Below are positions 10,791 to 43,260 of a stretch of DNA of 64,000 bases, piece after piece (the stretch's first letter is position 1; every line of letters starts with the position of its first letter). The translations under genes were made by a program, and so were the position numbers. The stretch is from Limonium bicolor. Lineage: Eukaryota > Streptophyta > Magnoliopsida > Caryophyllales > Plumbaginaceae. Under the pieces are notes generated by a model. That model ran no database searches, was not told the origin of the DNA, and saw only the letters and a program-made list of their open reading frames with translations. The DNA is taken from positions 116,483,793 through 116,547,792 of the forward strand of contig CM041776.1 of assembly GCA_023374045.1 (NCBI GenBank), in the 5' to 3' direction.

Positions 10791-10811
10791 AAACTGGATG
10801 CAAATGCAAGA

Positions 10812-16063: not shown

Positions 16064-16085
16064 GTCCCCAGCAGAGTCGCCAGTC
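16064..16085 (-). other. G1 primer-binding site
   Basis: On the minus strand GACTGGCGACTCTGCTGGGGAC directly follows the LTR end GGCTCACA. The TGGCGACTC...TGGGGAC form resembles the tRNA-type PBS of Ogre-like elements. It fixes the orientation of G1 as minus. Confidence 0.8.
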
Positions 16086-17874: not shown

Positions 17875-18820
17875 ATGAGTTAGGTCAATAATAGATCATT
17901 GACCATACAACTCCATGTATGTTGTAGGAATCGAATAGTTGAATTCCGTAGGGAAACCGGAAGAACAAGTACGACGGTGAACGGTATGATTTTCTCATGC
18001 CCTGTATTCTAACCTGGTTACCCCGATTTGTGTGCTTATGTGATCGCCAAAATAAGATAAATACACGAATCAGACTTTTACTGCACTTATTTGTGTTTGA
18101 GTTATATTGTTCTTGTTGTAATACCTTGAACATTTAGTTTGTATAATTCATGAAATGAATGGATGAGGATGAAGTGTATGTGTGGCTTGATGTGTAATGT
18201 ATTAACCCTTGGTATGGAGGTAATGACTTGTACTAATTCCTAACTATCTAACCCACTAACATGAGTAATTGGTAAAAATGGAATGAGTAGAAGTCCGATA
18301 TAGTTTCGGCCACGCATGAGGATAAGGAGACACAAGAGGTTGGATCCGAATCCTGGCCTTAATCTTTTCCATGGACCAAACCCCTTAAATGGGTAGCATC
18401 CTTGATTAGTGAGCCACCCTAAAGCCCGGTGGTGGGATATAGTAGTCCCTACCCGGAGGTCATACCAACTTCACTTGAGTAAGTAAGTAAAGTATTGTAT
18501 GAGTAATGGTCTTGGCTAGCGTAAGTCATTGACCACGAGTAATAGAGTAAAGCACCCCGATTAACCCGGGCGTGTAAAGAAGCTAACAAGCCCTGTGTAT
18601 GTATTAGAGAAGTGTATCTCCGTATTCCGGTAAGTATGAATGGGTGACTTGTAATGTCCTCCCATGGAATGTATGTATGTTTTGAGATATGAATGTGTTG
18701 TATTGTATAAGAGCATGTATGTATGTATGAATAAACCGAACCGCATGTATTCAACTAAATAGTCGGCGTACCCTCGCTAGTACGCGGGGTATGCGGATTT
18801 CATATGCAGTGTTAGCTGAG

Positions 18821-18851
18821 CCCCTTGGGGCACTGTTTTTATTTCTACAGG
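18821..18851 (+). promoter_or_regulatory. Conserved LTR hairpin plus pyrimidine tract and CAG|GTAC (LTR A left)
   Basis: CCCCTTGGGG is followed by CACTGTTTTTATTTCTACAG and then GTACTCG. It is homologous to the sites in LTRs B, C, D, E and the right A LTR. Confidence 0.45.
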
Positions 18852-19329
18852 TACTCGTGAGATTTGAAGGTCGAGTAAGGACCGTGATGAATTCTTTTTG
18901 GTATAGTTAGTAGATTTGAATGGTGTACCGAGTTGTACACGGCTTGACGCCTTTTTGAGTAGCCGGTGTACCATGTGGTACACGCTTTTGAGAGAATTGA
19001 ATTGTGAAACTTAGAATGAATGAGGGATTGTGTAAACTCATAATTTTTTGGTGTAGACTTGTAGACTTGGAATGTAATTCGTATTTTGGATACTCGGTAA
19101 TCAAAGTTGTAAGTAAGTATTGGAAGCGTATGGTAAGTAATTAGTTACTCGGTATTTCTTAATCGTCAGACCGTAACTGTATGTAAGTAGTAGTAGCCTT
19201 GTTAGTCTTGGAATGGCTAACGATGTTGTATCACCCGCGAGGAGAATGTAAGTATCCGCTGGATGTGGAGTAATTATGAGGACGGTAAGAAGATAATGGA
19301 AGGATTAGCGATTGGGGTGTTACAAAAAG

Positions 19330-19342: not shown

Positions 19343-20182
19343 CTACTGCGCTCTGAAGATTAGATTACCGAGTGTAGTGATTACCGAGTTAGGATTACAA
19401 ACCGTTTTACAACGGAAAATTTGAAACCTAACTAGGAATGACCGTTAATGATAACAGATACCCTTGACGTCTGAAAAGACGATACCATTGTTTGAATCAA
19501 GACCACATGGTCACAGTATCTAATGTAATCCACACTTGTTCAGATGTTAGGAAAAGGATGTGGTCGAGGCCGATCCCGGGGAGAGCAGGCTGATGAGCCT
19601 GGTGCGCAGACGGTCACTGAGATCGTCGTTACCACCATGGCACAACTGATGCCCCAACTAATGACTGCAGCCCAGCAGCAAGTCCAACAAAACCAACAAC
19701 AACAGCCCGACCCGCCTCAGCCCCCGTGAAACCAATTGGGTAAAGGCAGTCGCCGACCTTCGACCTCCCTGCTTTAGAGGCGAGAGCGACCCCGCCAAGC
19801 TCGAGGCCTATATCTCCGAGATGGAGACGACTTTCGAGTGAGGATAGCTGCGTACTACCTCAAGGACGCGGCTATGGACTGGTGGAAGCTCGTCAAGGCC
19901 GAGCACGTAGCCGACCCCACATTCGGCTGGGAAGCATTCACCTCTCTCCTCCGATCTAAGTATTATCCCGAGCATGTCAAGACCAAGAAGAGGCTTGTGC
20001 TCGATGCCCTTAAGATGACGGAGAAGATGACGGTTGATGAGTATTACCGTACCTTTACCTCCATTCTCAGACTCCTACCCGACCTTGGGTATACCGGCCA
20101 AGTCTTGGTCGACCGCTTCTACGGCAAATTGAGCCATCAACTCCGGTATGGTATGGGACTCACACGGTTTACCTCCCTTCAG

Positions 20183-20271
20183 GTAAACATTGTTTAAACC
20201 CTTAGATGCCATGAACAATACAAATTCGTATCCCCGTATGTAAATGCGTAAGCTAATGTCGAATACTTCAG
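20183..20271 (+). other. Candidate spliceosomal intron 1 in gag A
   Basis: CTTCAG|GTAAAC...ATACTTCAG|CAG, 89 nt, phase 0. It contains in-frame stops and removing it restores the gag frame. CAGCAG at the acceptor allows a 3-nt alternative. Seen in sequence; splicing itself is inferred. Confidence 0.65.
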
Positions 20272-20551
20272 CAGTGTTACCACGCTGCATCTCGAGTTGA
20301 GATCACCTGCCAGCTAAGAGATGAAGAGCAAGCGCTGAAGCGCAAGGTGAGCAGCAAAGGTATCAACTCCGACGAACAAAACCAGAATAAACCTTGGAAG
20401 AAGAAGAAGGGGAAGTACTCCCACCAAAACCAGAAGAACACCTCTAGAGACAGTAGTGCCCAGGAAGAGAAGGGCAAGGCAGCTGAGCCGTTGCAGCTCG
20501 CCTATACTGGGCCAGTGGCAGCAAAGCCACTGAGGTCTCAGCCCTACAAGG

Positions 20552-20644
20552 GTAAGAACCCGAAATCGAACTAGTAAACTTGTGAATCGATGTGTATGTG
20601 AATTAGTGTAATTGTGCCGAACCTCGCTAACTTAGAAGCTACAG
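20552..20644 (+). other. Candidate spliceosomal intron 2 in gag A
   Basis: ACAAGG|GTAAGAAC...AAGCTACAG|GTTCTGG, 93 nt, phase 1. The 5' site matches the plant consensus. The interior holds stops, and the flanking frames join correctly when it is removed. Confidence 0.65.
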
Positions 20645-20983
20645 GTTCTGGCTATGGCAAGAGCCAAAATGATGGCCGAAGCTATGTGTGCCGAAGTTGC
20701 AACAAGGATCATCCCGACACCGATTGCCAAGGAAGAGAGATCCGATGCTACAACTGCCAGAAGCCATGGCACCATGCGAATGTATGCCCGGAGAACTCGA
20801 AGCCCAAGGGAAACTACCAGGGCTACAAGCAGCGTGAAGGCAAGGAGGTTGCATTTGGCGATGCTTAGGCCCAGCAGACCTCACAGGGACAGGGGTCCCG
20901 AGGTGCTCAGAAGGGCGGACCATAGAGGCAGCCAGCCTTGCACATTATTGATCGCGACGGGACCGGTACTAAGTCCAGCCTAG

Positions 20984-21173
20984 GTATTAACTGTAACCTT
21001 TGATCCTTGGAGAGCATGTCTAAGTATTGAATTACCTGTATGAATGAATGCATGAATGTGTAAGTACTTGGAGTATGAATTTAAGCATAAGTAAGTAGAA
21101 TTGAAGTATGAATTTGAGCATGAAACAAACTAGTTGAGACTAGAACTTACGTTAGATGAATTTACCACCATAG
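20984..21173 (+). other. Candidate intron 3 between gag and AlkB-like exon
   Basis: CCTAG|GTATTAAC...CACCATAG|GTAGGTT, 190 nt, AT-rich, phase 1. If spliced, the end of Gag is joined in frame to the FNIC-containing start of the AlkB-like segment. The interior has many stops and ATGAATG-type repeats. The joining is inferred from phase and splice-site form only. Confidence 0.55.
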
Positions 21174-21607
21174 GTAGGTTTAATATCTGCTACCCGATAC
21201 CTTCAAACCTGCTCCATGAAGAAACCGACATCACCACTACACCGACGAGCAGTGTCAGGTTATCCGCCCAGGTATGATTTTATTAAAAGGATACCTGACA
21301 CCCGAAGCACAAATTTCGATCATTAGACGATGCAATGAACTAGGGATGGGTCTAGGAGGATTTTATACACCCGAATTCCCCGGTGGGGCAACAATGAAGC
21401 TGAAGATGATGTGCTTGTGAAAGGATTGGAACCCTTATTCCAAGACATACCAGAAGACACGAGCAGGAGACGGAGCAACACCTCCATCAATACCCACTGA
21501 ATTCCAAATGCTTCTTACTCAAGTTGTAGAACTTGCACAACAATGTGTAGATGACCCAATCCCTGCACTGGAAGCAGACCTATGTATCATCAACTTCTAT
21601 GAGAAAG
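21174..21607 (+). pseudogene. AlkB-like 2-oxoglutarate/Fe(II) dioxygenase domain, N-terminal half
   Basis: This is the first half of an AlkB-family domain, split from its second half (34963-35270) by solo LTR E. It reads from RFNIC (frame 2, 21176), shifts to frame 1 near 21255, then gives VIRPGMILLKGYL, the GLGGFYTPEF loop, KLKMMCL, and ends DLCIINFYEK at the insertion point. The order matches bacterial AlkB and plant ALKBH1-type proteins, where this half forms the nucleotide-recognition lid and the first core strands. A TGA at 21418-21420 replaces what is normally a glycine-type position. AlkB enzymes oxidatively remove methyl or alkyl groups from nucleic-acid bases. The domain lies between the Gag knuckle and the protease, on the same strand. 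A host gene captured by the element is the favoured origin. Confidence 0.87.
21603..21607 (+). repeat. Target-site duplication GAAAG (left) of solo LTR E
   Basis: GAAAG here and at 34963-34967 directly bound LTR E, a perfect 5-bp duplication. Only one copy is needed to keep the AlkB reading frame, showing that the domain predates the insertion. Confidence 0.92.
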
Positions 21608-21964
21608 TGTAACACCCCAACTACAACAATACACTTGACAACCATTTGTAGCGGAAAACATAACTCATCACATTACTTAACTCATTGGTGTTACACGCCG
21701 TTAACCACCCACGTGGCTAACAAGGCTAATACATATACATTGTATCGGTCTGATGGACCAGATTCCCGAGCAACTACACATTACAATCCTGTTCCATTTC
21801 CGACAGTCAATATACATTTACATTCCAACTGTACCGAGTATTTACAAACTAATGCTGACAACAATTTCGGTCTTACTACACCTACAATCCATAAGTAACT
21901 AAATGAACTACCCATTTGCAAACAACTACCCCGTCCTACTCTCGAACGGCTTCCAGCTCCTTGT

Positions 21965-22003
21965 ACCTGAAAAGGAAAGAAAGCGTGGCCCCCTAAGGGG
22001 CTC
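21965..22003 (-). promoter_or_regulatory. Conserved LTR hairpin plus pyrimidine tract and AG|GTAC (LTR E)
   Basis: On the minus strand GAGCCCCTTAGGGGGCC is followed by a TTTCTTTCC-rich tract and TTCAG|GTAC. It is homologous to the sites in the other Tekay-like LTRs. Confidence 0.42.
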
Positions 22004-23529
22004 AGCGCCTTTGCTGGTATGGTAATCGTGCAGCCCGCATACTACTGGGCCACGCACTACTAATTGTCGTCTAAGCATGCGGTTGATTATATTTAAATCA
22101 TGCATGAAAACTGTAAACACATAACACATTACATACCCACAACAATGGGGCTCAACAAATCAGTCAACACATCTATACTCGTTAGATAACTCATTGTGTT
22201 CTTTAACCCTTTAGGGTTTCTCCTTTAATGGAGCTAATTCCTTATTAGACGACACTTACCCATTAGTCGGGTTACACTTAAATTCCTTTTATTATAACCT
22301 GGGATTGATACCCATGATCCATATACTCCACATAACAACTCATATCACATTTTAACGTACATACAACATAAATTGGAGAGGGTCATGTGAGGACACGTAC
22401 CCCGAGATGTGAGTTAGTAATCTCATTGGAGCCTAGAGAATCTTTTATTTCCATGCTAAGCTCGTTATACAATAACTTATTGTTCTACACAGAGAACATA
22501 TATTTACTTAAGATGCGTCAGATAATATAGTTCCGAACCCACCGTACATATTAACTTTACTGAGATGTGTTGGTCTTAATATAGTACCGAACACCGTACA
22601 TATTAACTTTACAGAGATGCGTCGGTCTCACTATAGTACCGAACACACCGTACATATCCCCCGAATCTGACATGAGTCAGTAAATAGCCTTGGTTAAGCT
22701 TGAGGGTGATTGAAGACCAAAAAGGAAAACAACCAATAGAGAGAGTTAAAGAAACTGTATACATCAACTCCCAAACAATGCGTGACCAGAACGACCGGAT
22801 TCCTTACCCCCATAATATGTATATATATAGTTAAGAGCTCCATTATGGAACCTATCACATCCACGCACCATATGGTGTTACAACTGGGTTAAACACACAA
22901 GGGAGGTAAACATACTTACACGCACAAACAACACACAACTAACTCACGCATAGCCGTGGTTAGAATGTTCCCATGGTTTGGGTCATTAAATCCGAATACC
23001 AATCTCTTATGTGATCCTCGATTTGCTTAGCTATGGCTTAACACTTTCGAGGTTAAACGGTATTGGAACCAAACACGCCACCTAATTGAATTACTATAAA
23101 CTCATTACATGTTTTTATCTTATAAGGTAGCAACATTCAGAAAAACACATTGACATACAAGCCGGTGTAATCCGGTAGAACACAGGTTGCAAGAAAACCA
23201 TACCTGTCACCAAGGTCCACTCTATTGTGTCCTCTTATGTTCCTCGAATAATTCTTGAACAACTGGTAACATTACAATTGTTCCCATTAACATCGGGATA
23301 CTACGATTATTTAACGACTAGTGTGCCATAGTTAATCCTGTTAACTAGTTAAATAACTTCACATTGTTAACTTGTTTTACTTTCACATTTTACTACAACT
23401 TTTCACCCACTTAATTGTCATTATAACTCACCGAACTTGTATTTCCATTTGAGCTTATACTTATTCATCCACATTATACTCACTAGGGTTCACCACTTAA
23501 ACCACATTTTCTTTTCTGTTTTTTTACAT

Positions 23530-23825
23530 GTATGGGCCGACCGACCCATCGACCGACCCAACCCCTGGATCGGTCCATTCCAGTAACATTCGGGTTCACT
23601 GATTTTTGCCTGACCGACCGACGCCTACTTCGACCGACCCAAAGTCCTCTGGGTCGGTCCGTTCCTGAAACATTTTGATTCAGTGTTTTTAGCCCGACCG
23701 ACCCACCGACCTACCGAACCCCTTTCGATCGGTCGATTCCAGAAACATTCCCGTTGCCTTAACACTGTCCGACCGACCCAGCCATGGTCGGTCCCCTGGG
23801 TCGGTCGACTGCAGAAACTTCCCAA
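23530..23825. repeat. GGTCGGTC/GACCGACC hairpin cluster in LTR E
   Basis: Four units combine GACCGACCCA-type and GGGTCGGTC-type arms with TTCCAGAAACATT-like spacers. This is the same architecture as in LTRs A, B and D. Confidence 0.8.
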
Positions 23826-25004
23826 ACATTGTCAAACTTTCTCCAAACTTTCCCTCAAGCCTCCTAATGTGTTTTAACACCATTTGGCACACTTAAACCT
23901 TCATATAATATCCACCAAACTCTTTTCCCAATTCACTTCTAATCTCCTCAAACAATTACTCATTTACATACCAAATTCTTAACACTTGTAATGTTTTTCC
24001 TTAAGTTTCTAAGTGGTAATTTTATACCTATTACATCTACTAACCAAAGTGTTCTCCACCACATAATAACTTCTCCAAAGCATTATTTTGCATCCCTATC
24101 ACTCCTCTTTCATAAACTTCCTAAGTCTTCTTCACAAGTTCATTCTTATCCCTTACAATACATTATTTTCCCTTGTTTTCTAAAACTTGCAAAAGTCTTA
24201 AATACTTCACATAACATAACTTTGGTGTGTTTAAAACACCCATTTGATCTCTAAATCTTCGAAGACCATTCCTAGGTCATCCTAGGACTCATGAACTCCT
24301 TAATTCACTTCCTTTCATCAATTTAACATTTAAATAATTCCTAGTACAACCTAGGTCACCAAACTTCATTTAACCTCCTAAAACTCCTTGTTTACTCACC
24401 AAATTTTGACATAGCTTCTCTTGTATCACCTTACACCAAAACACATAGTTTTTTCAACTTCTATACAATCCAAGAACACTCAATCCCTTAATACACATCC
24501 TTACACACAAACATATGGTTTTTCCCATCCTTTAACCATCAAAGACATTCATCTTCACAAGGAAGGTTCTTCACACACAACTAAGCCTTAGATCACACTA
24601 CAACACAATATAGTGCATAAACTTAAATTGCTTGACACTTAGGCCCTTAAATTGCATTAATCTTAAACACTGAATTTCCACGTTTAAATGCCTTCAACCT
24701 ACAAATACACACAACATCACATATGCCCTTAATAACCTCCTTGTGGGTATTTACTAACTCATTTCCCTTTGGCTCTTTAGGTTGTTTATGAACCAATTAT
24801 AGCTCAATTTCCTAAGGCACAAAACTAGATTAAGAGAGGTCATTTACCTCTTTATTTTCCAAGCTTCCTCACTTGTTTTCTCTTGTTCTCTCTTGATTGA
24901 AAATCGGCAAGGAGCTTTTATCACTTGTCAATCTTCTAACTAATACACACATATATGGGTAATGAGCATCAAGTTTTATACTTTAACTCATGATTAAACC
25001 CTAG

Positions 25005-27035
25005 TGTGAGCCTCGATTTTAAACCCTATCCTATGTTGATTAAATTTATTGGGATCTAGTCGGGTTTTAGGTCCACTTATAACCTAAGATTAATAACTAT
25101 GTCATAAAACAATAATTATTAAAACCTAAGCTAGCTCACTAGAACCTATTATGAGTCGCCACCTAATTTTTACCTAGATCAAATTAGGAAAGGAGAGTTC
25201 AGGTTCGGGGGCTTGATATTCGACTTAATTAGGGTTCAATTACTTTCATTACCCCTAGAAGTCGTTTTTCCTCTACTTGGTTTAATTACGGCTTATTACG
25301 AGTCGTTTTAACCTAAATGCGCGAGCTTCTGTTTTTTTGTGTTTTTTAGCATTTTTTGACATAAAATTAAAATATAATTAAAGATTCCTAAACTAGGGTT
25401 TCGGAGGCAGAATTAGGTCAAATTTTGTTTCCGTCCGTGGCTACGGACCTAATGTCCGAAACCACGGACCCTAGTTAACCTATGTGAACATAAAAGTCGA
25501 ATTAAAAAGAAAACAAAATTTTGCAAGGTCCGGGGGCCATGGACAGGATGTCCGTGGGCCCGGACATTAATTTAGAAAACCTAAATTTTGAGAATTTTGA
25601 AATACCGCCACCGTCCGGGGGCGTTCGGGCTTACGGACAAGGTGTCCGGGACCCCGGACATAGCGTCCGTGGGTGCGGACCGCCCTCGGACGGCGGCGTT
25701 TGGGATGTTCCCGATGGTGTTTTGAGCTCAAATTTTATGGGTGTGTAGCCTGAAAGATGTACAAGATGTTAGTGATTGAAAGTTTTCAATTTGAAATCGA
25801 ATTAAATGCGAAACTTAACGAACAAGTTAGAAGGCAGAAACACAAACAAACCTTAATTCAGAAGCAAGGAAAAATCAATTCGGTTAGCAATTTTAACCAG
25901 AAGTGTATTTAGACCAGAAGGGTTAGAGAATTTGGTTTTTACCCTGTTTTGATTTCGAAAATTTGTTGTTCCTTCACGTCGGGAATCTCTGAAAGCTTCG
26001 TTGGTGGCCGATCCGGTTCGACTTTGACCTGAGCTTCTGACCTTTCTTCCTTGTGTTTTTAAGCACGTTTTGGTTCTGTATTTGTGGTGTTTTGATGCTT
26101 GGAAGTTCAATGGGAGAAGAAAGAATGGTTTTTGGTGATTTTGGGATGATTTGGTAGAGTTTCGGTATTGGGAGTGTTGAAAACGTGGGAGGCAAGTAGA
26201 CGGCTGTGTTCTCTGACTATGGGAATGTTCTCTCTGCCCTAGGTTTTTTTGGAAGGTCCTTTTATAGAAAGAGCAAGGCCATGTTGATAGAACAAGATTT
26301 TATCTAAAACCCTGATTTTGTGCTCTAAGGGAATCTGATTTTTTAAAATATGTTGCAGGCCGATAAAAATTATGGAATTTTAACTGAAGGTAAAGGATGA
26401 TTTTTAAGAATTTTGAGAGTTTGAATCGGGTTATTTTAATAAATAACCTATTAGATAAAAATCTCACAATCTGGAATCTCCCATAATTAATAACTTATTA
26501 TTGGAAAGTCGAAATAACGAAATTCCAACGGAATTAGTCTCTAATAATCATCCTCTATCTTGTGTTAAAATTTCATGACGTTTTGTTTTGATTTCGGTAT
26601 TTTCCATAGGAGAGAGAAAATTGCAAAAATGATTGAATTTCTCTTATAAATTTTGGGTTAAGGTTCCAAATAAAATAATTTCAGGTTTATGACTGTATGT
26701 AGTCATGCTAACCATGTGACAATTTTATTTTAATTTTGGAAACCTTTTATTATTTCTATTTTGAGGTTATTCATGTGTTAATTAAAGAAATTAGCTTATA
26801 ATATGAATTAAAAGCTAAATTTCCAGAATAAATATTATCAGAAAATCATGAAATACATTTCATAATGACTATGATATTCGGAAGTGTTTAGAGATAATAA
26901 ACAAGTCATATGAAAATAGAAAATCCCGATAATGTCCTTGGATAATCCCGCCTTGGTGCTTTTTGACCCCTTTTGCCCTTTGTAACACGTATGCCTTAGA
27001 GACTACTCCGGGGGGTTGAAATTTTGGGTATAAGA
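25005..27035 (-). repeat. G2 3' LTR (left copy)
   Basis: 2031 bp, pairs with 31677-33642. The terminal CA is mutated (TATAAGA where G1 has TATAACA). It contains the CCGTGG/CCACGGAC inverted-repeat cluster at about 25430-25690. The PPT complement GATTGCCCCCCGTCAAC follows. Confidence 0.86.
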
Positions 27036-27139
27036 GATTGCCCCCCGTCAACTAGGCTTTGTAATGAAGATGAAAAGACTAGTTGATGCCTGAGTGACAC
27101 CCCAAAATTTTGGGATCTTAAAAGACCCTGTATGTGGAT

Positions 27140-27430
27140 TGTGTCGAGCTGTTCTAAGGCGCTGACTACCTAAAAACGAAATGACGAAGTAAATGTCAAG
27201 CGATTCTAAGGCGTTGACTACCTAAAAATGAAATGACGAAGTAAATGTCAAGCGATTCTAAGGTGTTGACTGCCTAAAAATGAGAAACAAAAATGAAATA
27301 ATGCCAAACGGTTCTAAGGCGTTGACTACCTATAAGCGAAGATGAAGTTATGTCGAGCTATTCGAAGGCGTCGACTACCTAAACTGAATGAAAAGATGTC
27401 AAGCTATTCTAAGGCGTTGACTACCTGAAG
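27140..27430. repeat. G2 tandem array 1
   Basis: About six diverged copies of the TCAAGC(T/G)ATTCTAAGGCGTTGAC unit, corresponding to array 1 of G1. Confidence 0.82.
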
Positions 27431-27477
27431 ATGATGAAAATGAAAAAATATGTAGATGCAGGAATGCTGATATGCTA

Positions 27478-27572
27478 GTGATGCTTATTATGTTGATGAT
27501 GTTGATGATGCTGATGTTGATGATGCTGATGCTGATGATGCAGATGATGCGGATGATGCGGATGATGCTCGG
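27478..27572. repeat. GATGAT(G/C) trinucleotide microsatellite in G2
   Basis: GATGATGCTGATGTTGATG-type run, corresponding to 10812-10905 of G1. Confidence 0.8.
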
Positions 27573-27799
27573 ATGCTTCTGGGGACCGAACCCGTGCCAA
27601 TGCTCCTAGCTGGACCCAATGTGGACTTATTGCCATCGCCCCCCAAGCCGGTGTGCAGGGATAACTCCTGGTAAAAACCCTGGGGACTTATTGCCTTTGC
27701 CCACCATTCGTTGATCCCAAAAATAAGTTGACATCGCAAAAGGAGGACTTATTGCCATCACCTCGCCAACTTTTGTCGCCAGGTCTTGTGACGCGCCTG

Positions 27800-28110
27800 G
27801 ATAATGCAACTAGGTCTTATGACGAGCCTATATGAATGAGATGAATGCAATGTGTTTGATGAGAGTGGGTAAGCTAAAGGGTCTTACTACGAGCCTAAAG
27901 GAATGCAGCTAGGTCTTATGACGAGCCTAAAGGATGGTTCTAGGTCTTATGACGAGCCTAAAGATTGGATCTAGGTCTTATGATGAGCCTAGGTCTTATA
28001 ACGAGCCTAAGGATGGATCTAGGTCTTATGACGAGCCTAAAGGTTGGATATAGGTCTTATGACGAGCCTAAAGGTTGGATCTAGGTCTTATGACGAGCCT
28101 AAAGGTTGGA
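27800..28110. repeat. G2 tandem array 2 (TAGGTCTTATGACGAGCCTA)
   Basis: About nine copies with the same core as G1 array 2 but fewer in number, so copy number has changed between the two elements. Confidence 0.85.
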
Positions 28111-28174
28111 TCTAAGTGAAAATGTGTTAGGTGCATGATGAATGTAGAAGGACTAAGGCTTATAGCAAACCTGG

Positions 28175-28415
28175 AGATGGTAAGGCTCATGACGGGCCTG
28201 TGGGTGTTTAAATGTGAAGGAAGGGCTTAGGACGGGCCTGAGGATGTTTGAAAGTGGAGGAAGGGCTTAGGACGAGCCTGTGGATATTTGAATGTGGAGG
28301 AAGGGCTTAGGACGGGCCTGTGGATATTTGAATGTGGAGGTAGGGCTTAGGACGGGCCTGTGGATATTTGAATGTGGAGGAAGGGCTTAGGACGGGCCTG
28401 TGGATATTTGAATGA
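28175..28415. repeat. G2 tandem array 3 (AGGGCTTAGGACGGGCCTG)
   Basis: About six copies of a unit of about 40 bp (GTGGATATTTGAATGTGGAGG spacer type), homologous to G1 array 3. Confidence 0.85.
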
Positions 28416-29749
28416 GAGGGTTTTAAAACCTTTGGGTTTCGGGTTTTTGGGCCTCCATCGGTGTCGTTGTTGCAATTGTTGGGACCAACAATTGCCCCCA
28501 GTATTTTTCCTTGAGGTGATCTGAGTTTTCAGGGCTTCATTGCAATCGAACGGAACGATCGATTGCCCCCAGTATTTTCTTTGATTAATTGCGCAAGAAC
28601 AAATCTCATCCTCACAAGGTCAAGGTTTATTTTGGTGTGGTGCCTTCTATCCTACACTCAAAGTGTTTGATGTTTGCACTCGTGCCCTCCTTTTGGTCAA
28701 GACATCTCAACCACTGAATTTGACATTTGTTAGATTTACCGTTCAACCTGTTACTTTCACGTGATTGGATACACAACTACTAAGTCAGTCTTTTAAGCTT
28801 ATAACGTGGCTATGAGGTGTGATGAAAGACAAAGGGATGATGGAGGAATGTTTAGGATATGTGGGCCATAAGGGTGACCAAAGCTGCAACTTGCACCTTC
28901 TCCCGGCCTTGCTTTCTTTGTCTTGAAGTCGTTCGGCTACTTCGTGATGACTTCCCTTATGAGCTTGGAACTCTGGATTTTCAGGTTGCACCTTCTCTTT
29001 TTTTTTTCTGATTTTGGATTACTTCGAGGTGTTTCAGGTTTGCCTTCCTTTGAATCTCTTTTCCTTCGGGGTTCTTGTGTTTCCCGGTTTTGAACTTTGA
29101 GAGCTGTTTTTTGATGTTAGCTCATTTGGATCCTGTGCCACTTTGGGGCCATTTACGGATTGTTTCGTCATGCTGGTGGCAGTTTGCTTCTTCAGACTTG
29201 TGAAGTTGCTGTTCGGAAGTCGGGCTCCTTGCTTCCTTTGGTCACCGGGTCGGTTATTCATCACTGGCTGGCTCGTTTGTTGAGTTTGTAGTGTTGTAAA
29301 AGAGGATGTACACGAAAAGCTCAGCGGGGGTGCCTAGGGTTAATGTCAGGGTTCACAAGCTTTTTGGCTGTGTGGTGCTGTACCTAGGTGCTTCGTCATC
29401 CCTAATAGTTGTGTATTCGTTCTTTGTTACTTTTCATAGGTTTAAGCGTAAATTTACAAATTATCTCCTTCGGTTGGAGTCATGCCGTTTACCTTACCTT
29501 TGAATGTAATCTCTCTGGAGCCATGTAAAAATGACATGCTCTTTCACTCATGGTTTTACCACTCAAGGCACCCTCGCAAAATGTTCACTCAGAGACTTGT
29601 TCGCGTGCTTTAAACTAATGAAAGAAACGTTATCGACCCTTAACTCAGATTGCCCCCAGTATTGTTTTGGGGTCTTTTGACAAGCCTTTTGAATACCCAG
29701 GTTATTTGTTGGAGGTGGCTATATGTGTGGTGGTACATGGCGATGAAGT

Positions 29750-31180
29750 CTTGTTGTTTTGGTGGAGTATGTAGTGATGAAAGTAAAACATGGCAGTGGG
29801 ATGCTTTCAGTGTACGGTGAAATTTTCCATTGAGAGGTGATGAGTGGTGGAAGCCAACAAGGTGGTGAGATATTCCTTGCACAAGAATGAGTTTCATGTG
29901 GAGAGGGGAGTGTGGTGAGACACATAGGATGTATGTGATGAAGGTAGTGGATGTGGGTGAAATGACGTGATGACTTATTTATTTTTTGGTGTTCTGGTTT
30001 TGTGAATAAATGCACAAAAAATAATGAAAATGGAACTATGCTCTAATTCATGAATGGAAAGACAACATAAAAAATTGTAATCTTAAGAAAACTACCTAAA
30101 ATGATAAAGGAATCTAGCTACCATAAAAGTTGGGAGAACGACTGGGAAAAGAAAACTACCAAATCGAGAAAACTTCTAAAATAGTGATGTTGGGCTGTCT
30201 GATGCCAACATACTGAAGACTCGAGCTCTGGACCGTCGGGACGTCATTGAGATGACCGTGATTGTCTTCCTTCTGAACTTCGAATAGGCCTCATAAAATG
30301 ATTGAACTAGGAATGCCTATGAGTCATGTAGGAGGAACCCGGGTCTGAATCTTTTCCAAGCTGCGAGTGAAGTGCATGAGCTAGAGTGACTCCTAGGATA
30401 GAACAGATTTGCGCCTGAATACCCTTAATCTAGAAGTGAAGCAAACGGGCTGAAGGAGGCCACACGAACCGTGAATGGGCCACTGGGCCGAGAGGGAAAG
30501 CCTTGAAGTCTGAGATTCGTTTGATGTTCCTGTCGGGCCTTGACGCTAGAAACTGGAATGAATGAGTTATGTAACCTATCTTGGATTCAAATGTTTTGTG
30601 CTATGGGCCAAACTTCTAGATTGAGAGCGAAGCTTATGGGCCAAAACTATGAATTGGTCTACGGGCCCCAAATAGAATGAGTCATGAGTGTGGTATTTGG
30701 GCCAGAATGATTGCTGAACAAAACCCTAGGTTGGAATTTGGACTGAAACCTGAATGAGTAGTATTGACTGAACCTGAAAGATGATGCCTAGATCTAGGAT
30801 TTTGGGCTAAAGCCCAAGTGAAGAGTTTTCCTATACTAGAATAGGCCCTGGGTCGGAAGAATTTCAGTGGAAGGCTTGGTTGGTTTACATATCTCATGGA
30901 TTACTTTTAGGTGGACTTTTATGGGCCTAGAACTAAATGGATAAACCAAATTGGGCTGAAAAAGAAACCTCCTAAGTCTAAACTTTTGGGCCGAAGCCCA
31001 CATAACTCACATGTTGAACCAAACAGAGCCTTTAGGCTGCAAACAAATAGAACTGACAATTCGGGTTGGGCTAGGTTGATGTAGGAGAAATTCCTATCAG
31101 TTTCTAGGATGGGTAGTGGGCCGATCACACAAGCAAACAAGGCCCACACAGATTCAACATGTCCTCACTAGATGTTTAAA
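29750..31180. other. G2-specific non-coding insert replacing gag, rich in TGGGCC/TGGGCT
   Basis: There is no similarity by eye to the gag region of G1 and no convincing reading frame. The right part (30470-31280) holds about 14 TGGGCY motifs on either strand (for example near 30475, 30604, 30640, 30923 and 31117), some as near-palindromes such as TTGGGCCGAAGCCCA at about 30987. TGGGCY is the plant 'site II' motif bound by TCP factors, but the match is only compositional here. Confidence 0.5.
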
Positions 31181-31654
31181 TCAAACCAGGTATGGATCGA
31201 TCCGGAGAGGTGCTTGGGGCATGGGCCCAGGTCACCACAAAGGAATAGGGCTTGCACGCTATTCTCTTTGGGCTTCCCCACTCTTTTCACATCACCTGAA
31301 GGTGTGCGTCTACGGTCGGGTCTTTGACTGACCAAACAATGGGCTAGGTAAGGGCACTGCCGGGAAAACGCTGGGGGCTAAGGCCCAGGTATTAAGGGGA
31401 TGTGGTTAGACGACATCATCCTCTTTTCCCCCGCTTATTCACATCACCTAAAAGGTGTGAGTCCCAGACAGGGGACCCTCAAACGGGTCCCGGGGTGAAA
31501 TTGGTTTGTGTGGACCCTCGCTCTCATGTGATGCGAAGGTGCAGAAAATTAAAGTGCGCACGAAAGTAAACAAACAGAGTAATAAAGCCATAAATAAACA
31601 TTTTCGAGTTAAGCCCTCTTTCTTAAAATTAAACAAGTTAAAATTAAGAATTTT

Positions 31655-31676
31655 GTCCCCAGCAGAGTCGCCAGTC
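31655..31676 (-). other. G2 primer-binding site
   Basis: On the minus strand GACTGGCGACTCTGCTGGGGAC follows the LTR end, identical to the G1 site. Confidence 0.8.
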
Positions 31677-33642
31677 TGTGAGCCTCGATTTTAAACCCTA
31701 TCCTATGTTGATTAAATTGATTGGGATCTAGTCGGGTTTTAGGTCCACTTATAACCTAAGATTAATAACTATGTCATAAAACAATAATTATTAAAACCTA
31801 AGCTAGCTCACTGGAACCTATTATGAGTCGCCACCTAATTTTTACCTAGATCAAATTAGGAAAGGAGAGTTCGGGTTCGGGGCTTGATATTCGACTTAAT
31901 TAGGGTTCAATTACTTTCATTACCCCTAGAAGTCGTTTTTCCTCTACTTGTTTAATTACGGCTTATTCGAGTCGTTTTAACCTAAATGCGCGAGCTTCTG
32001 TTTTTTTTGTTTTTTAGCATTTTTTGACAGAAAATTAAAATAAAATTAAAGATTCCTAAACTAGGGTTTCGAGGCAGAATTAGGTCAAATTTTGTTTCCG
32101 TCCGTGGCTACGGACCTAATGTCCGAACCCACGGACCCTAGTTAACCTATGTGAACATAAAAGTCGAATTAAACAGAAAACAAATTTTGCAAGGTCCGGG
32201 GCCACGGACAGGATGTCCGTGGGCCCGGACATTATTTTAGAAAACCTAAATTTGAAAATTTTGAAATACCGCCACCGTCCGGGGGCGTCCGGGCTTACGG
32301 ACAAGGCGTCCGGGACCCCGGACATAGCGTCCGTGGGTGCGGACCGCCCTCGGACGGCGGCGTTTGGGATGTTCCCGACGGTGTTTTGAGCTCAAATTTT
32401 ATGGGTGTGTAGCCTGAAAGATGTACAAGACGTTAGTGATTGAAAGTTTTCAATTTGAAATCGAATTTAATGCGAAACTTAACGAAGAAGTTAGAAGGCA
32501 GAAACACAAACAAACCTTAATTCAGAAGCAAGGAAATATCAATTCGCTTAGCAATTTTAACCAGAAGTGTATTTAGACCAGAAGGGTTAGAGAATTTGGT
32601 TTTTACCCTGTTTTGATTTCGAAAATTTGTTGTTCCTTCACGTCGGGAATCTCTGAAAGCTTCGTTGGTGTCCGATCCGGTATTTGTGGTGTTTTGATGC
32701 TTGGAAGTTCAATGGGAGAAGAAAGAATGTGTTTTTGGTGATTTTGGGATGATTTTGGTAGAGTTTCGGTATTGGGAGTGTTGAAAACGTGGGAGGCAAG
32801 TAGACGGCTGTGTTCTCTGACTATGGGAATGTTCTCCTCTGCCCTAGGTCTTTTTTGGAAGGTCCTTTTATAGAAAGAGCAAGGCCATGTTGATAGAACA
32901 AGATTTTTATCTAAAACCCTGATTTTGTGCTCTAAGGGAATCTGATTTTTTAAAATATGTTGCAGGCCGATAAAAATTATGGAATTTTAACTGAAGGTAA
33001 AGGATGATTTTTAAGAATTTTGAGAGTTTGAATCGGGTTATTTTGATAAATAACCTATTAGATAAAAATCTCTCAATCTGGAATATCCCATAATTCATAA
33101 CTTATTATTGGAAAGTCGAAATAACAAAATTCCAACGGAATTAGTCTCTAATAATCATCCTCTATCTTGTGTTAAAATTTCATGACGTTTTGTTTTGATT
33201 TCGGTATTTTCCATAGGAGAGAGAAAATTGCAAAAATGATTGAATTTCTCTTTTAAATTTTGGGTTAAGGTTCCAAATAAAATAATTTCAGGTTTATGAC
33301 TGTATGTAGTCATGCTAACCATGTGACAATTTTATTTAATTTTGGAAACCTTTTATTATTTCTATTTTGAGGTTATTTCATGTGTTAATTAAAGAAATTA
33401 GCTTATAATATGAATTAAAAGCTAAATTTCCAGAATAAATATTATCAGAAAATCATGAAATACCTTTCATAATGACTATGATATTCGGAAGTGTTTGGAG
33501 ATAATAAACAAGTCATATGAAAATAGAAAATCCCGATAATGTCCTTGGATAATCCCGCCTTGGTGCTTTTTGACCCCTTTTGCCCTTTGTAACACGTATG
33601 CCTTAGAGACTACTCCGGGGGGTTGAAATTTTGGGTATAACA
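31677..33642 (-). repeat. G2 5' LTR (right copy)
   Basis: 1966 bp, TGTGAGCC...TATAACA. Compared with the left LTR it has a deletion of some tens of bases near 32680 and otherwise matches closely, with few substitutions. Confidence 0.86.
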
Positions 33643-34962
33643 CCTAGATTTACATAAGTGTTCTAAACCACTAAAATGGAAGTTTACCTTGGAATTTGAA
33701 AGAGAACTTGATTAAGAAGCAAGAGAGGACTCAGCCTAGCCCTTTGAAGATTGAATCAAGCTAAATGAAGAGCAAGATAATGCACCATTAAGAGGTGAAT
33801 TTTCGGCTAGATATGATTATGAAGGGAAGCATGGACTTTCTTTTATTTTTCCTTACATTGAAGCAAAGGAGAATGACAAGGCATGAAAATGTGAGCTCAA
33901 GCTCCTTCAATGGTGATTCTTCATGGCACCAAAATGGAGCTCTTGAAGATTTGAAAAGAGGGAAATGGAGGGCTTGGTTTAACTAAGTCAAGGGTGGTCT
34001 TAGAATTAATTTTGGAGCATTAAGCTAGAAGTTACAAGCATTCTAAGAAGGAGAATGTGTGGTTGCTGTAGCAAAACTATTTTGAGAAGGGAGGTGAAGG
34101 TTGGAGACAGTGGGAAACAAGAAGGAAAGAAGAGAATGAGGAGAGAGGTTAAGTTTGTAAGATATTTTATATATAAAGCTAATAGTACTTTACTTTATCA
34201 ATCTTCCTTCCTTAATAAACTAACAAGGGGGATGACTCACCACATATAAAATCAGCCCCCTTTTGTATATAGGATGATTTTTGGTCTTTGTTGACCATTT
34301 AATTAACTTATGTTGACTTATGTCTTAAACTAGCACTATTTGAGTACTATTCACTATTTAGTGCACATAATTGTGAAACTTTTGATTTCCCATTGACTTA
34401 GACTTCCTAATGTGATACTAAGTAGTACACATGTTGATTAAAGAGTAATGATGGGCATTTAGCCACTCCAAACCCATTTACAAGACAATTTTTCAAAAAT
34501 GTGCTTTAAGACTCCTTAAAGTACATTTTGTGTTTTAACTTGTTTTCCAGCTTGGTTTTCTTTAATAATTGATTTAACATGTTCATTAGAATGTTACTAA
34601 GTTCTATAAATGACCTTTAGGTCTTATACAAAGTTACACCAAGCCTAGAGCAAGTATTTGCTTAAATCGACTTTATGGTGTTTTCTTGTGTTTTGTTTGG
34701 TTTAAATTGTCTACCAATGTTTATTAAGGACTTAAATAGTCTTATAAAATCATATTTTTATGTTATTAAGTCTTGGCATGCTCTTTGGGTCCTAACCAAG
34801 TTCATTCCAAGCTTAGAGCATATTTCTGCTCAAACTGTCTTTATGGTACTTTATTGTTTATATTATGGTTTAATTTACTTAATAGCATTTCTAAGGCACT
34901 TTTTAGCCTTTATATACCATAATCTACTATTTAAACAACATAACAAGGTCTGGGGTATTTCA

Positions 34963-35270
34963 GAAAGAAGGACGAGTTGGGTTACACCAAGATAAGGACG
35001 AGACGACGGAATCTCTTGAACAAGGAGTGCCCGTAGTGTCTTGGTCCATTGGTGATGACGCCGTATTTTTGTATAGCGAGCAGAAGTGTGTGGACCTCGC
35101 AGAGAAATTGGTATTGAGATCAGGAGATGTCCTAATCATGGGTGAAAAATCAAGGTTGCTGTATCACGGGATCTAAAAGATCAAACTGAATACGGCACCA
35201 CCGGCAATAATCAATGCCACACACATGAAACCTAGACGCTTGAACCTTACCTTTAGGAAGTATTAATCTT
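34963..35270 (+). pseudogene. AlkB-like dioxygenase domain, C-terminal catalytic half
   Basis: This is the catalytic half of the AlkB-like domain. Seen in frame 2: GLHQDKDE with the iron ligands H (34985-34987) and D (34991-34993); VVSWSIGDDAVFLY; LRSGDVLIMG; SRLLYHGI with the third iron ligand H (35165-35167); and PRRLNLTFRKY, carrying the R-x5-R pair that holds 2-oxoglutarate (35237-35257). These spacings match E. coli AlkB and plant ALKBH1-type proteins. One stop (TAA 35174-35176) interrupts it, and the natural end appears to be TAA 35264-35266 or a splice near 35270. Chemistry known for the family: 2-oxoglutarate and O2 dependent removal of methyl groups from RNA or DNA bases. Substrate and activity of this version are unknown. 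Confidence 0.92.
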
Positions 35271-35409
35271 GTAGTATCATGTAATATATTAGTAACGTGT
35301 ATTAGAGACACGGTATGTATGATGGTTGGTTTATCAATAAAGAGTAGTGTTGATTATTAAATTCCACTTGTGTCCTACCATCATTACTTATGAACTTGTG
35401 AATCGTTAG
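35271..35409 (+). other. Candidate intron 4 or AlkB 3' untranslated region
   Basis: AT-rich, stop-filled, 139 nt. Read as an intron (TCTT|GTAGTATC...ATCGTTAG|GTTGTGG, phase 1) it would place AlkB in frame with the protease, apart from the TAA at 35264. An AATAAA at 35336-35341 suggests the alternative that the captured gene kept a 3' UTR with a poly(A) signal. The donor site is weak, so both readings remain open. Confidence 0.42.
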
Positions 35410-36878
35410 GTTGTGGATTCAGCACCGAAGGTAACCTGAGTATCCTCACCGAAGCACAAGCCGATAAGAGCGGCACCATTCTAACGGGAACCTTCCCAGT
35501 AAACGGCATTGATGCCTCCGTACTATTTGACTCCAGCGCCTCTCACACTTTTGTATCGCCATCTTTTGCGAAGAGGTTGGGGCTAGACGCGGATGAGCTA
35601 CCAAACTTCTTGGTTACTCTCCCATCGAAGGAGCGAGTAAGATGTACCAAGTATTACCAAACCACCACAATTTGAATCAAGGGCGAAGAGTTTCCCATCT
35701 CCTTCATCGAATTTAATGGGTTGGGATTCGACTTGATAGTCGGGATGAACTGGTTGGAGCGGCATAAGGGGCAAATCCTCTACGCCGAGCATAGACTACG
35801 GCTCAAGAGTCCATCTAGGGTCACTATTTCATACCGCCAGAGGCCGAGAGAGCCATCCACTACAGTCATCTCTACTATGGCTATGTACCGGGAGCTCAGA
35901 AAAGGACATGATGTGTATTTATGCCATGTGCAAGATCTGGAGAGAGATCCAGAATTCAGTACCGATGTATCAGTTGTATTTGACTTCCCTGATGTATTCC
36001 CGAAAGAGCTGCCTGGTATGCCACCCCCAAGAGTAGTTGAGTTCGAAATCGACCTTGTCCCTAGTACTGGTCCCATTGCTAGGGCACCGTACAGTATGGC
36101 ACCTGAAGAAATGACTGAACTTAAGGAGCACTTGCGCGACCTACTCGACAAAGAGTTTATACGCCCGAGCGTACCACCCTGGGGAGCACCGGTCCTCTTC
36201 ATGAAGAAGAAGGACGGTAGCCTCCGACTCTGCATCGACTACCGTGAATTGAATGCGGTCACTGTAAAGAACAAGTATTCGTTGCCACACATCGATGACC
36301 TGTTCGATCAGTTAAAGGGAGCTTCAGTCTTCTCCAAGATTGACCTCTGATCCGGGTATCACCAGATTGCTATCAAAGAGTAAGACATTGATAAAACAGC
36401 ATTCCGAACGAGATAAGGCCACTACGAATTCACCGTGATGCCATTTGGTTTGTCAAACGCACCAGCAAAGTTCATGGACTTAATGAATCGGTTATTCAGC
36501 GATCAGTTTGACACTTTGGTAGTAGTATTCATCGACGACATCCTTGTGTATTCGAAGTCAGCAGAAGAGCATGAAAAGCATTTGAGAAGAGTACTTGAGA
36601 CACTACGCGAGAACCAGCTTTATGCAAAGTTCTCCAAATGCGAGTTTTGGCTAGATCAGGTATCCTTCCTCGGTCATGTCATCTCGAGCGCGGGTATTTC
36701 AGTAGATCCATCCAAAGTCGAAGCAGTATGATCATGGCCTAGACCTAAGACTGTTACCGACATTCAGAGCTTTCTTGGTCTATCCGGTTATTATCGGAGG
36801 TTTGTAAAGGACTTTTCTAAAGTCGCAAAGCCCATGACGACACTGATGAAGAAAGATGCACCATTTATATGGACTGAT
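35410..36878 (+). pseudogene. Element A protease and reverse transcriptase (5' part of pol)
   Basis: The aspartic protease core is read as VLFDSSASHTFVS (35523-35561); the usual D-S/T-G is changed to D-S-S. RT follows: [59 protein letters not shown], and the catalytic FIDDILVYS with aspartates at 36534-36539. The connection region ends WTD at 36878, where element F is inserted. The frame is constant (frame 0) with stops at 35673, 36348, 36381, 36414 and 36729, several looking like CGA-to-TGA changes. RT copies the element RNA to DNA and the protease matures the polyprotein; both are dead here. The frame continues at 47610 after the insertion. Confidence 0.92.
36874..36878 (+). repeat. Target-site duplication CTGAT (left) of element F
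   Basis: CTGAT precedes the 5' LTR and is repeated at 47605-47609. One copy restores the pol frame of element A. Confidence 0.92.
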
Positions 36879-37316
36879 TGAAGTGGGGTTCCACCACGTG
36901 TAATAATCAAGTAACTAGCGGAGGATACATGCTGCCTGCGGAGACAGCAGAAGGGTCTCCTTCCGACCGAATCTCCTTCCGACCGCAACGATCGGACCCA
37001 TGCTTCCAGAGAACCATTCTTTGGATAGACTGCGGAAGAACGATAAAGCTATATGGTCTTCCCCACCACCGAAGCGAAGCAAGGCCCTCTCCGATAGATT
37101 GGGAGTAACTATTCGGCAAAAGGAGTAAATTATAGGAAAGCCTTGTATATTTGAGAATATTCTAAAGTAGTGTAGACCCACAGAAACGGTTATACTCTAT
37201 AGGGGGGCCTATAAATAAGAGTGATAAGCTATGTAATTGGACATGCTTTTTAATCAATACATCGCCAGGCACTCTCTTTGCAACCTTTGTCTGAGTACGT
37301 GTTCTATATCATCTCA
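36879..37316 (+). repeat. Element F 5' LTR
   Basis: 438 bp, TGAAGTGGGG...ATCATCTCA, same length as the 3' LTR at 47167-47604. It contains a TATAAATA box at 37210-37217. Confidence 0.93.
37210..37217 (+). promoter_or_regulatory. TATA box in F 5' LTR
   Basis: TATAAATA lies about 100 bp before the LTR end, a normal position for the U3 promoter. It is also present in the 3' LTR at 47498-47505. Confidence 0.7.
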
Positions 37317-37318
37317 TT

Positions 37319-37337
37319 TGGCGCCGTCTGTGGGAAT
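37319..37337 (+). other. Element F primer-binding site
   Basis: TGGCGCCGTCTGTGGGAA starts two to three bases after the LTR end. This form of PBS is common in Tat-lineage plant elements. Confidence 0.82.
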
Positions 37338-37400
37338 CAAACGTCGAAAGACAACCGCGATTCAATCCACAGAGTCACGTTTCTTGTCTCTCGTTCGACC

Positions 37401-38462
37401 ATGGCACCACGATCAAGCAAAGGGAAGGGAAAGATGGCTGCAACCGGAGAAAGCTCGTTCTCAAAGGAAGACCTCACCGATCTGATGAGGAGTTTTGCGC
37501 AGGAGGTTAATGAGAAGATCGCTGAGAGCAATGAACGGTTCCAACAGGAGATGACGGATAGAGATCTAGAGCATAAGAAAATTGACGAAATAGCGAGCGT
37601 AATTGAGAACCTGAAAACGAAGAACGGATCAAAGAGTGAAGAAAGCTGGAAAGAGAAGTCACCGCCAAAAGATGCAGAGGAGGACCTCATCGACATGTCG
37701 CTATATCCCTTCACCGAAAATATTCAGAAGGTGAAGCTCCCACCGTTCTTTATCGCTCCGACAATAGAGAAGTACGATGGAACCGGGGACCCCGCTCAAC
37801 ATATCAAGAAGTTCATCTTCGCGATGAACACTCAAGGGATCAGCTCCCAGGCACTCTGCAATTTGTTTCCAGGAACACTTGCTAAAAGAGCTCTAAATTG
37901 GATCTCCTCTCGAAAAACACAATCCATCTCAAGCTTCAAACAGCTTACAGAGGAATTTCAACTTTACTTTGCAGCAAGCAAAAAGATCCAGAAAGATACG
38001 ATCGAATGGATGGACATCAAGCAGAAGTGGGGAGAGACGGTGAAAGAGTACAGCGAACGTTTCCATAAGCTAGTGGCTGAGGTAGATGATGTGGATGAAA
38101 AAATACTGGTAAAAGCTTTTGGAAATGGATTGGCGAATCCAAGATTGGCAGGGAAAATTGCTACCAAAGCACCACAAACTCACGGAGAGCTAGCAGAAAT
38201 GCTGCACGATTTCTTGAAATCGGAGATTGCGGAAAATAAGGCAAAAGAATTGGCCAATAGTTTCAAACTGGCAAACGAGAGGAAGCAAGGAGGAGCGCTG
38301 TCTGTTGGCGCGAGTTATGGGGAGGCGTCTGCTTCAAAACCTTGGGGAGCAAGATACAGGCCGTATGGGAAGGATCCGGTCGCAACTTCCCATACTGGAG
38401 GCAAGTCGACATATGGAGCAAAAGTTATTACTATCGCCCAGGGAGGTACGCAGCCGCAGTAA
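37401..38462 (+). pseudogene. Element F gag (capsid)
   Basis: The start chosen is ATG 37401 (MAPRSSKGKGK), since the open frame upstream runs through the PBS. A charged N-terminus with short coiled coil (to about residue 110) is followed by the Retrotrans_gag-type capsid segment (KYDGTGDPAQHIKKFIFAM, LAKRALNWI, FQLYFAASKK, KEYSERFHKL, LVKAFGNGL). It stops at 38460-38462 in frame 0, while the knuckle and protease continue in frame 2, overlapping from 38342. A frameshift therefore separates the two; it may be a mutation or a programmed shift. Gag assembles the particle. Confidence 0.88.
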
Positions 38463-42709: not shown

Positions 42710-43260
42710 TCTCATATGGATATCCGAAGATCTCACAATCAGTAGCAATGAAGTGTTTTACCCGACGATCTCAGTTATCTTGTTTTCGAAATGTTTTACT
42801 CTCCGGTAATGACGTATAATGTTTTCGGACAAAAACAAAAAACATTGCAAAAACAATTTTTTACTTATTCAAAAGACAAGGAACAAAGAGTTATAAGAAA
42901 AGAAAAGAAAGACAAAAAATAGGACCGACGATCTCACCATCAGCGATGGTAGAGTGTTTTGTATCCGATGATCTCACCATCAGCGATGGTAGAGTGTTTT
43001 GTATCCGACGATCTCACCATCAGCGATGGTAGAATGTTTTGTATCCGATGATCTCACCATCAGTGATGGTAGAGTGTTTTGTATCCGACGATCTCACCAT
43101 CAGCGATGGTAGAGTGTTTTGTATTCGACGATCTAACCATCAACGATGGTAGTGTATTTCATTCAACGATCTCATGTCTTAAAGACAAAAGAGTGTTAAA
43201 CCGACGATCTCACCGTCTCGAAGTCGGTAGAATGTTAAATCGATGATCTCACCATGTGTA
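42710..43260. repeat. Tandem repeat block downstream of F pol (40-bp unit)
   Basis: About six good copies between 42924 and 43165 of a 40-bp unit with core GATCTCACCATCAGCGATGG and GTGTTTTGTATCCGA, with degenerate copies on both sides. It separates the sense pol gene from the antisense gene. Confidence 0.85.

Follow-up and report, generated by a model that had tools for sequence, protein, structure and literature searches.

An AlkB domain in a plant long terminal repeat (LTR) retrotransposon was described in 2022 in Phalaenopsis: Gypsy_Pa_2799, a 25-kb Ty3/gypsy element of the Tat/Ogre lineage, carries it as a separate open reading frame (ORF) of 565 amino acids (aa), ORF2, of the ALKBH5 type, and the AlkB was active in vitro on single-stranded RNA with N6-methyladenosine (m6A) (PMC9289625). 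According to the available part of that paper, AlkB domains in gypsy elements were undetected in the other genomes of a 121-assembly screen. Here, we analyzed a 64,000-nucleotide stretch of the Limonium bicolor genome (the window; GenBank assembly GCA_023374045.1, contig CM041776.1, positions 116,483,793 to 116,547,792 of the forward strand), in which an LTR retrotransposon, element A, has an AlkB-coding exon between gag and protease. Element A is a broken member of a large gypsy-type family in which alternative splicing likely yields both Gag-AlkB and Gag-Pol, and AlkB would enter the particles and demethylate the RNA or complementary DNA (cDNA) of the element.

As far as the available part of PMC9289625 goes, Gypsy_Pa_2799 and the present family share an extra 2-oxoglutarate- and Fe(II)-dependent AlkB domain in a plant Ty3/gypsy element, a high copy number, and kept catalytic residues. 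However, the orchid AlkB is a separate ORF2 of the ALKBH5 type in a Tat/Ogre element, whereas the Limonium AlkB, a putative demethylase, is a phase-matched exon between gag and protease (31/36 loci) of the ALKBH1C/D type, with rice OsALKBH1 as its best match, in a family with a weak chromodomain. Because the type, position, and expression of AlkB differ, the present family is probably an independent acquisition, apart from the orchid case. If so, plant retrotransposons would have acquired AlkB at least twice, and the orchid case would become a pattern in which methyl-mark erasure is a repeated need of plant retroelements. An earlier, sequence-only reading of the window had known of no standard Tekay/chromovirus element with an AlkB domain; we likewise found no chromovirus case, but the AlkB-bearing gypsy element of another lineage had already been published (PMC9289625). 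Among the open-license matches listed (titles and beginnings of abstracts), there was no further AlkB-bearing LTR element, and PMC12786077 cites the orchid paper. Plant RNA viruses with AlkB domains, which the Discussion of PMC9289625 mentions, are likewise parasites whose AlkB is proposed to act on their own RNA, but they are not LTR elements.

Splicing and RNA methylation are both known from other plant elements. EVADE and BARE1 make Gag apart from Gag-Pol by alternative splicing, and Ogre has functional introns (PMC12786077; PMC3735527). In contrast to these, the alternative terminal exon of the present family, as deduced from genomic copies, is a captured enzyme domain, and its Gag form would carry AlkB. 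Besides, the Arabidopsis demethylase ALKBH9B frees m6A-marked ONSEN RNA from stress granules, as described in the part of PMC12786077 available.

AlkB exon of element A

The segments 21174 to 21607 and 34963 to 35266, both on the + strand, are the two halves of a single AlkB exon between the gag knuckle and the protease, which bears out the arrangement proposed in the sequence-only reading; the start given there, 21174, is exactly the predicted splice acceptor. The motifs it had quoted were confirmed on the + strand in both segments, and GLHQDKDE, SRLLYHGI, and RRLNLTFR (HQDKD, YHG, and RRLNLTFR in the core) are present in 34963 to 35266. The AlkB profile PF13532 matched 34958 to 35170 at 59.5 bits (E value, 6.8e-16; cut-off, 31.2 bits), whereas the matches to 21421 to 21606 (19.7 bits; E value, 0.001) and 21220 to 21417 (15.9 bits; E value, 0.016) each fell under the cut-off when taken alone; the three matches cover the consecutive profile positions 1 to 45, 52 to 105, and 105 to 169. 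In a phmmer search against the PDB, the top match of both 34958 to 35170 (E value, 1.5e-21) and 21421 to 21606 (E value, 1.8e-8) was 5xeg, rice OsALKBH1. The sequence-only reading was to be given up if no AlkB profile matched or if no other genomic copy had AlkB at the same place; instead, AlkB profiles matched, and the genome holds thousands of such copies, as described below.

The AlkB exon of the window copy is broken by in-frame stops at 21418 to 21420 in the 5' half and at 35174 to 35176 in the 3' half, the latter ahead of the natural stop, and by a shift of frame at some point from about 21174 to 21270. Besides, it is split by a later LTR-type insertion of 13.4 kb (21608 to 34962), with TG...CA ends and a 5-base GAAAG duplication (21603 to 21607 and 34963 to 34967). 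The perfect target site duplication reported earlier was thus recovered; the insertion is at most a putative solo LTR, as a nested repeat pair lies inside it. This pair (25005 to 27033 and 31677 to 33640) is 97 to 98% identical, so that insertions are nested in insertions.

The AlkB-bearing family in the genome

Genomic searches covered the genome from which the window comes, 2.92 Gb in 2686 contigs. PF13532 gave 38325 first-look candidates, the best 150 of which were scored. All 150 exceeded the cut-off, and 149 had no stop inside the match, although the sample is biased since it was ranked by AlkB score; copies L003, L008, and L041 reached 169.5, 168.6, and 157.8 bits, respectively. At distinct AlkB loci, a zinc knuckle was found upstream at 32/36, a protease motif downstream at 33/36, and both at 31/36. 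We distinguished four subfamilies, S1 (most of the fetched copies), S2 (L001 and L008), S3 (the window copy), and S4 (L035 to L047), and the order gag-AlkB-protease is common to all of them. Over the region compared, the DNA identity among S1, S2, and S3 is about 60%.

Word searches allowing up to 3 mismatches, with reversed controls of 0 throughout, located the S1 AlkB word at 8053 places, the unspliced S1 gag exon-3 donor at 6840 places, and, with a pattern that takes in variable intron bases, the S1 AlkB acceptor at 3661 places. The association was also seen from the gag side: among 76 gag exon-3 sites picked independently of AlkB (exact donor sites listed in the first 34.7 Mb of contig C1), 64 had AlkB at a fixed downstream distance on the same strand, with the exact AlkB core (54) and/or the acceptor (39), and the wrong-side control gave 0.

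The LTR stretches compared in L025 and L027 are 97.8 to 99.1% identical, so that some insertions are young; L027 sits in tandem. Two tandem arrays with a spacing of about 10.1 kb, one of four copies (C1:497439466-497470353) and one of five (C1:18345094-18385807), fit shared LTRs. No relatives were found in viral contigs, and a protein search with a 71-aa piece of the window gave no matches.

Introns, splice sites, and joined copies

Introns and phase-matched splice sites are additional to what the sequence-only reading had reported. In the window, gag is read on the + strand as exon 1 (19560 to 20182; decayed, start approximate), intron 1 (20183 to 20271; GT...AG), exon 2 (20272 to 20551; read in the sequence), intron 2 (20552 to 20635; phase 1, GT...AG), and exon 3 (20636 to 20983), which holds the zinc knuckle and ends in a phase-1 donor. 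The knuckle (20602 to 20865) matched zf-CCHC at 14.5 bits, under the cut-off of 20.8. Intron 3 (20984 to 21173; GT...AG, phase 1 on both sides) lies ahead of the AlkB exon, and a noncoding stretch, intron 4 (35267 to 35409), leads from the AlkB stop to the phase-1 acceptor TTAG/G (the slash marks the border) of the protease-reverse transcriptase exon, the first part of pol (35410 to 36870).

Phases were read by eye in one or two copies of each of the four subfamilies. In S1, S2, and the window, exon 1 ends in CAG/GTA (phase 0), exon 2 in AAGG/GTA (phase 1), and exon 3 in a phase-1 donor, and the AlkB and protease acceptors (both AG/G) are likewise phase 1; in S4, the AlkB and protease phases are as in the other subfamilies, and the gag introns are partly different. 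The exon-3 donor retained its GT and the AlkB acceptor its AG in 24/24 aligned rows. Because the phases match, exon 3 can read either into AlkB, ending in a stop, or into protease.

A different reading of this arrangement is that AlkB is a free-standing protein, made from its own start or RNA like the orchid ORF2 and acting in trans on element or host RNA. The AlkB exon does end in its own stop, and the orchid offers a precedent, a separate ORF whose product demethylates m6A in vitro (PMC9289625, available part), but the exon opens in phase 1 right after a splice acceptor, this acceptor stands at its beginning in all four subfamilies, and the natural copy L048 has AlkB joined to gag in frame. 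We regard a free-standing protein as unlikely and prefer a Gag-AlkB fusion made by splicing.

The genome contains copies corresponding to both predicted splice outcomes. The gag-AlkB joint was found at 13 places, where the S1 counterpart of intron 3 is missing; nine of these match exactly, one has a single mismatch, and three have two mismatches (reversed control, 0). In L048, one of the gag-AlkB-joined copies, a single frame runs from the zinc knuckle to AlkB, with intron 2 still present. A 3-mismatch match at C4:145768635 appears to be unspliced and is not among the 13. The gag-protease joint without AlkB was found at 15 places (4 exact; 2, 7, and 2 with one, two, and three mismatches, respectively; control, 0), including L049, and its S4 counterpart was found at 5 places with 1 to 3 mismatches (control, 0). 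Besides, intron 1 alone is precisely missing in the S1 copies L025 and L027, and the S4 copy L044 lacks, by reading frame, two gag introns that are present in L041. Several different introns have thus been lost exactly at their GT...AG borders, which we infer to be the footprint of reverse-transcribed spliced RNA. If so, the genome preserves both predicted splice outcomes as DNA and offers a rare opportunity to deduce transcript isoforms from genomic copies.

Joined copies could also come from ordinary deletions or from an older element without AlkB, in which case they would not be retrocopies of spliced RNA and the introns would not be real. The gag-protease joint alone could be the ancestral state, variants of it such as TCGAGACCAG recur, suggesting that some amplified as a lineage, and a gag-AlkB joint in S4 was found at 0 places. 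However, the joints coincide exactly with the GT...AG borders predicted beforehand, and further introns are gone exactly, namely, intron 1 in two other S1 copies and two introns in one S4 copy. It is improbable that L049 is an ancestral element without AlkB, because it also lacks intron 2 and shares 93 to 99% identity with the nearest S1 copies (L021 and L024), which have AlkB. Moreover, the share of differences that fall on third codon positions was 0.54 to 0.65 in the gag exons and AlkB (0.65, 0.57, and 0.59 for gag exons 1 to 3, with 0.54 for exon 2 when another reference copy was used, and 0.62 for AlkB), whereas it was 0.26, 0.24, and 0.35 in introns 1 to 3; the count for exon 2 was repeated with three references other than L014, which is one base short in this exon. 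We judge deletion or an AlkB-less ancestor to be quite improbable, and we retain splicing as the source of the joined copies.

In L047 (C8:10212700-10215700), AlkB and protease share one open frame, and the intervening stretch is lost. The 644-aa open frame at C8:10214793, considered as a spliced AlkB-joint copy, was rejected, as AlkB runs into protease after loss of the intervening stretch.

Selection on AlkB

Between S1 and S2, AlkB shows a nonsynonymous divergence (dN) of 0.20 to 0.22 and a synonymous divergence (dS) of more than 1.7, with a rough dN/dS ratio of 0.08 to 0.12, which implies that AlkB has been kept by selection. The residues H153, D155, H213, R237, R243, N142, and Y144 were invariant in 9/9 S1/S2 rows, and in a 70-row alignment, H153, D155, and H213 were invariant and R237 and R243 were conserved in at least 90% of rows. 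The element AlkB thus has the HxD...H iron site and the two 2-oxoglutarate arginines. The window copy itself is broken, as would be expected if AlkB were a passenger in a dead copy with no role, but thousands of copies, four diverged subfamilies, a dN/dS ratio near 0.1 between two of them, and invariant catalytic residues refute the passenger explanation, and we assign it next to no probability.

Fold, relatives, and origin of the AlkB domain

AlphaFold modeled the S1 AlkB from the 70-row alignment with a predicted local distance difference test score (pLDDT) of 93.2 and a predicted template modeling score of 0.91; this model supersedes one from nine close rows alone (pLDDT, 30.6). The best Foldseek matches of the model were two OsALKBH1 entries (E values, 9.7e-28 for 5xoi and 2.3e-27), followed by Escherichia coli AlkB, while zebrafish ALKBH5 was far lower (rank 48; E value, 3.7e-8). 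In a protein search with the S1 AlkB, among the best 120 of 2571 matches, the top four were proteins from ENA or lgn sources with 60 to 72% identity, two shorter proteins of this type (P0041 and P0083) ranked lower, and named plant ALKBH1C/D-like proteins were about 43 to 53% identical. P0001, P0002, P0003, P0004, P0041, and P0083 are element-like AlkB proteins from these sources, within the same 60 to 72% range of identity.

In a phylogenetic tree, from which P0083 was left out, P0001 to P0004 and P0041 grouped with the element AlkBs and not with plant ALKBH1C/D. This element and ENA/lgn branch (support, 83/77) stands beside, not inside, 24 plant-like rows (20 named plants and 4 others), with its base open, and the 37 plant-like, element, and ENA/lgn rows together are apart from four bacterial-type rows (100/100). 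The element AlkBs share with plant ALKBH1C/1D and OsALKBH1 (5xeg/5xoi) the fold, the iron and 2-oxoglutarate residues, and an N-terminal FDIC motif upstream of the domain, but they form their own branch, and the element profile is without about nine residues that rice has ahead of the DICLVNFY segment. Capture of a host AlkB gene, as the sequence-only reading had suggested, fits these results, since the element AlkBs adjoin plant ALKBH1C/D-like proteins and keep FDIC; the most likely source of the AlkB is a plant gene of the ALKBH1C/1D type, acquired before the subfamilies diverged. Because P0002 has a leader resembling the element's own, the family probably has members in other sampled plants as well.

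With regard to the substrate, AlkB enzymes often accept both RNA and DNA, and a Gag fusion points to particles, where RNA and single-stranded cDNA both occur. Both points speak against action on DNA and not RNA, by which the enzyme would strip N6-methyladenine (6mA) or alkyl damage from single-stranded cDNA or the integrated element. In favor of such action, the closest solved relative is rice OsALKBH1, and the available part of PMC10469495 presents rice ALKBH1 as an enzyme that removes 6mA from single-stranded or unpaired DNA. The antigen peptide given in that paper is similar to a stretch close to the beginning of P0009, and the P0009 domain is nearly identical to the 5xeg stretch, so that the rice ALKBH1 of the paper and P0009/5xeg probably represent one gene. 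We consider action on DNA alone a real possibility but the less probable one, and we favor a substrate that may include element RNA as well as cDNA. PMC12736721 (NbALKBH1L) was not used for the choice of substrate, as the part of the paper available calls NbALKBH1L a homologue of ALKBH9B.

Proposed mechanism

Under the model that we favor, exon 3 would be spliced to the AlkB exon to give a Gag-AlkB fusion, or the AlkB exon would be skipped and exon 3 spliced to protease to give the Gag-Pol polyprotein. The Gag portion would carry AlkB into virus-like particles, where AlkB would remove methyl groups from packaged RNA or cDNA. The choice of exon may also set the ratio of Gag to Gag-Pol, because translation would terminate at the stop of the AlkB exon when this exon is included and continue into pol when it is skipped. 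The predicted splicing is well supported by genomic DNA; the Gag-AlkB fusion may well be made and packaged, AlkB is presumably an active demethylase with such a substrate, and the RNA or cDNA of the element itself is a plausible target of demethylation. More tentatively, and with slightly less than an even chance in our estimate, a captured ALKBH1-type demethylase would serve as an alternative last gag exon, such that a single splicing decision determines the Gag:Pol ratio together with the amount of an on-board eraser that clears methyl marks from packaged RNA or cDNA. The model raises the testable question of whether m6A, N1-methyladenosine, or 6mA restricts LTR elements inside virus-like particles.

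Several observations weigh against this model. The joined copies are rare (13 and 15 places versus 6840 unspliced S1 donors), some share descent (pairs about 9 to 10 kb apart), so that these numbers are places and not independent events, and the search of the genome for the S4 gag-AlkB joint was negative. The dS between S1 and S2 is near saturation, which makes the dN/dS ratio of AlkB rough, and the 0 indels in AlkB among 19 S1 copies come from copies chosen by AlkB score and hence biased. Many copies are decayed: the whole pol was open in one frame in 0/19 ten-kb copies, and frame-breaking indel runs in gag exons 1, 2, and 3 were 10/11, 28/28, and 6/6, respectively, relative to L014, itself one base short in exon 2. 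The chromodomain after integrase was below the Pfam cut-off of 25.1 bits in both copies tested (window, 20.4 bits; L010, 21.3 bits). The host origin of AlkB rests on a tree in which the element branch has moderate support (83/77), and searches with a rice piece and with a Senna piece did not bring out the host's own ALKBH1 gene from beneath the element copies. In the rice-piece search, 10/12 fetched loci show a zinc knuckle and/or protease motif, and the other two (L035 and L045) have long downstream ORFs taken for pol by eye.

Layout of element A and nested elements

Element A has the order protease-reverse transcriptase-RNase H-integrase on the + strand. Its 5' LTR is in two parts, 5334 to 8492 (95.6% identical to 49184 to 52356; cut by a nested element) and 17874 to 19325 (94.0% identical to 52350 to 53815), followed by a site that resembles what we take to be an initiator-tRNA primer-binding site. 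The first bases of 5334 to 8492 agree with the 3' copy of pol at its chromodomain end, suggesting that a short pol end of another copy lies ahead of the 5' LTR in a tandem, LTR-sharing arrangement. A 5' LTR starting inside pol was also considered; the tandem arrangement fits better, because the LTR of the S1 copy L025 begins after its pol frame. An RVP_2 match from 35676 scored 20.1 bits, just below the cut-off of 20.3. Downstream of the first part of pol, a nested element (36871 to 47604, + strand; 446-base LTR pair, 96.6% identical) interrupts pol, and the remainder of pol (47605 to 49520, +), with RNase H, integrase, SH3, and the weak chromodomain identified by Pfam, is followed by the 3' LTR (49521 to 53815, +; defined by LTR repeat comparison, start approximate).

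The nested element in pol has gag-pol on the + strand and long antisense ORFs between pol and its 3' LTR, and by this layout we assume it to be Retand-like. A young nested element (8490 to 17874) within the 5' LTR of element A has an LTR pair 98.2% identical and a gag-like ORF at 13904 to 15187 on the minus strand. Short-period direct repeats occur within the nested elements at 10397 to 10793, 11207 to 11644, and 42925 to 43174.

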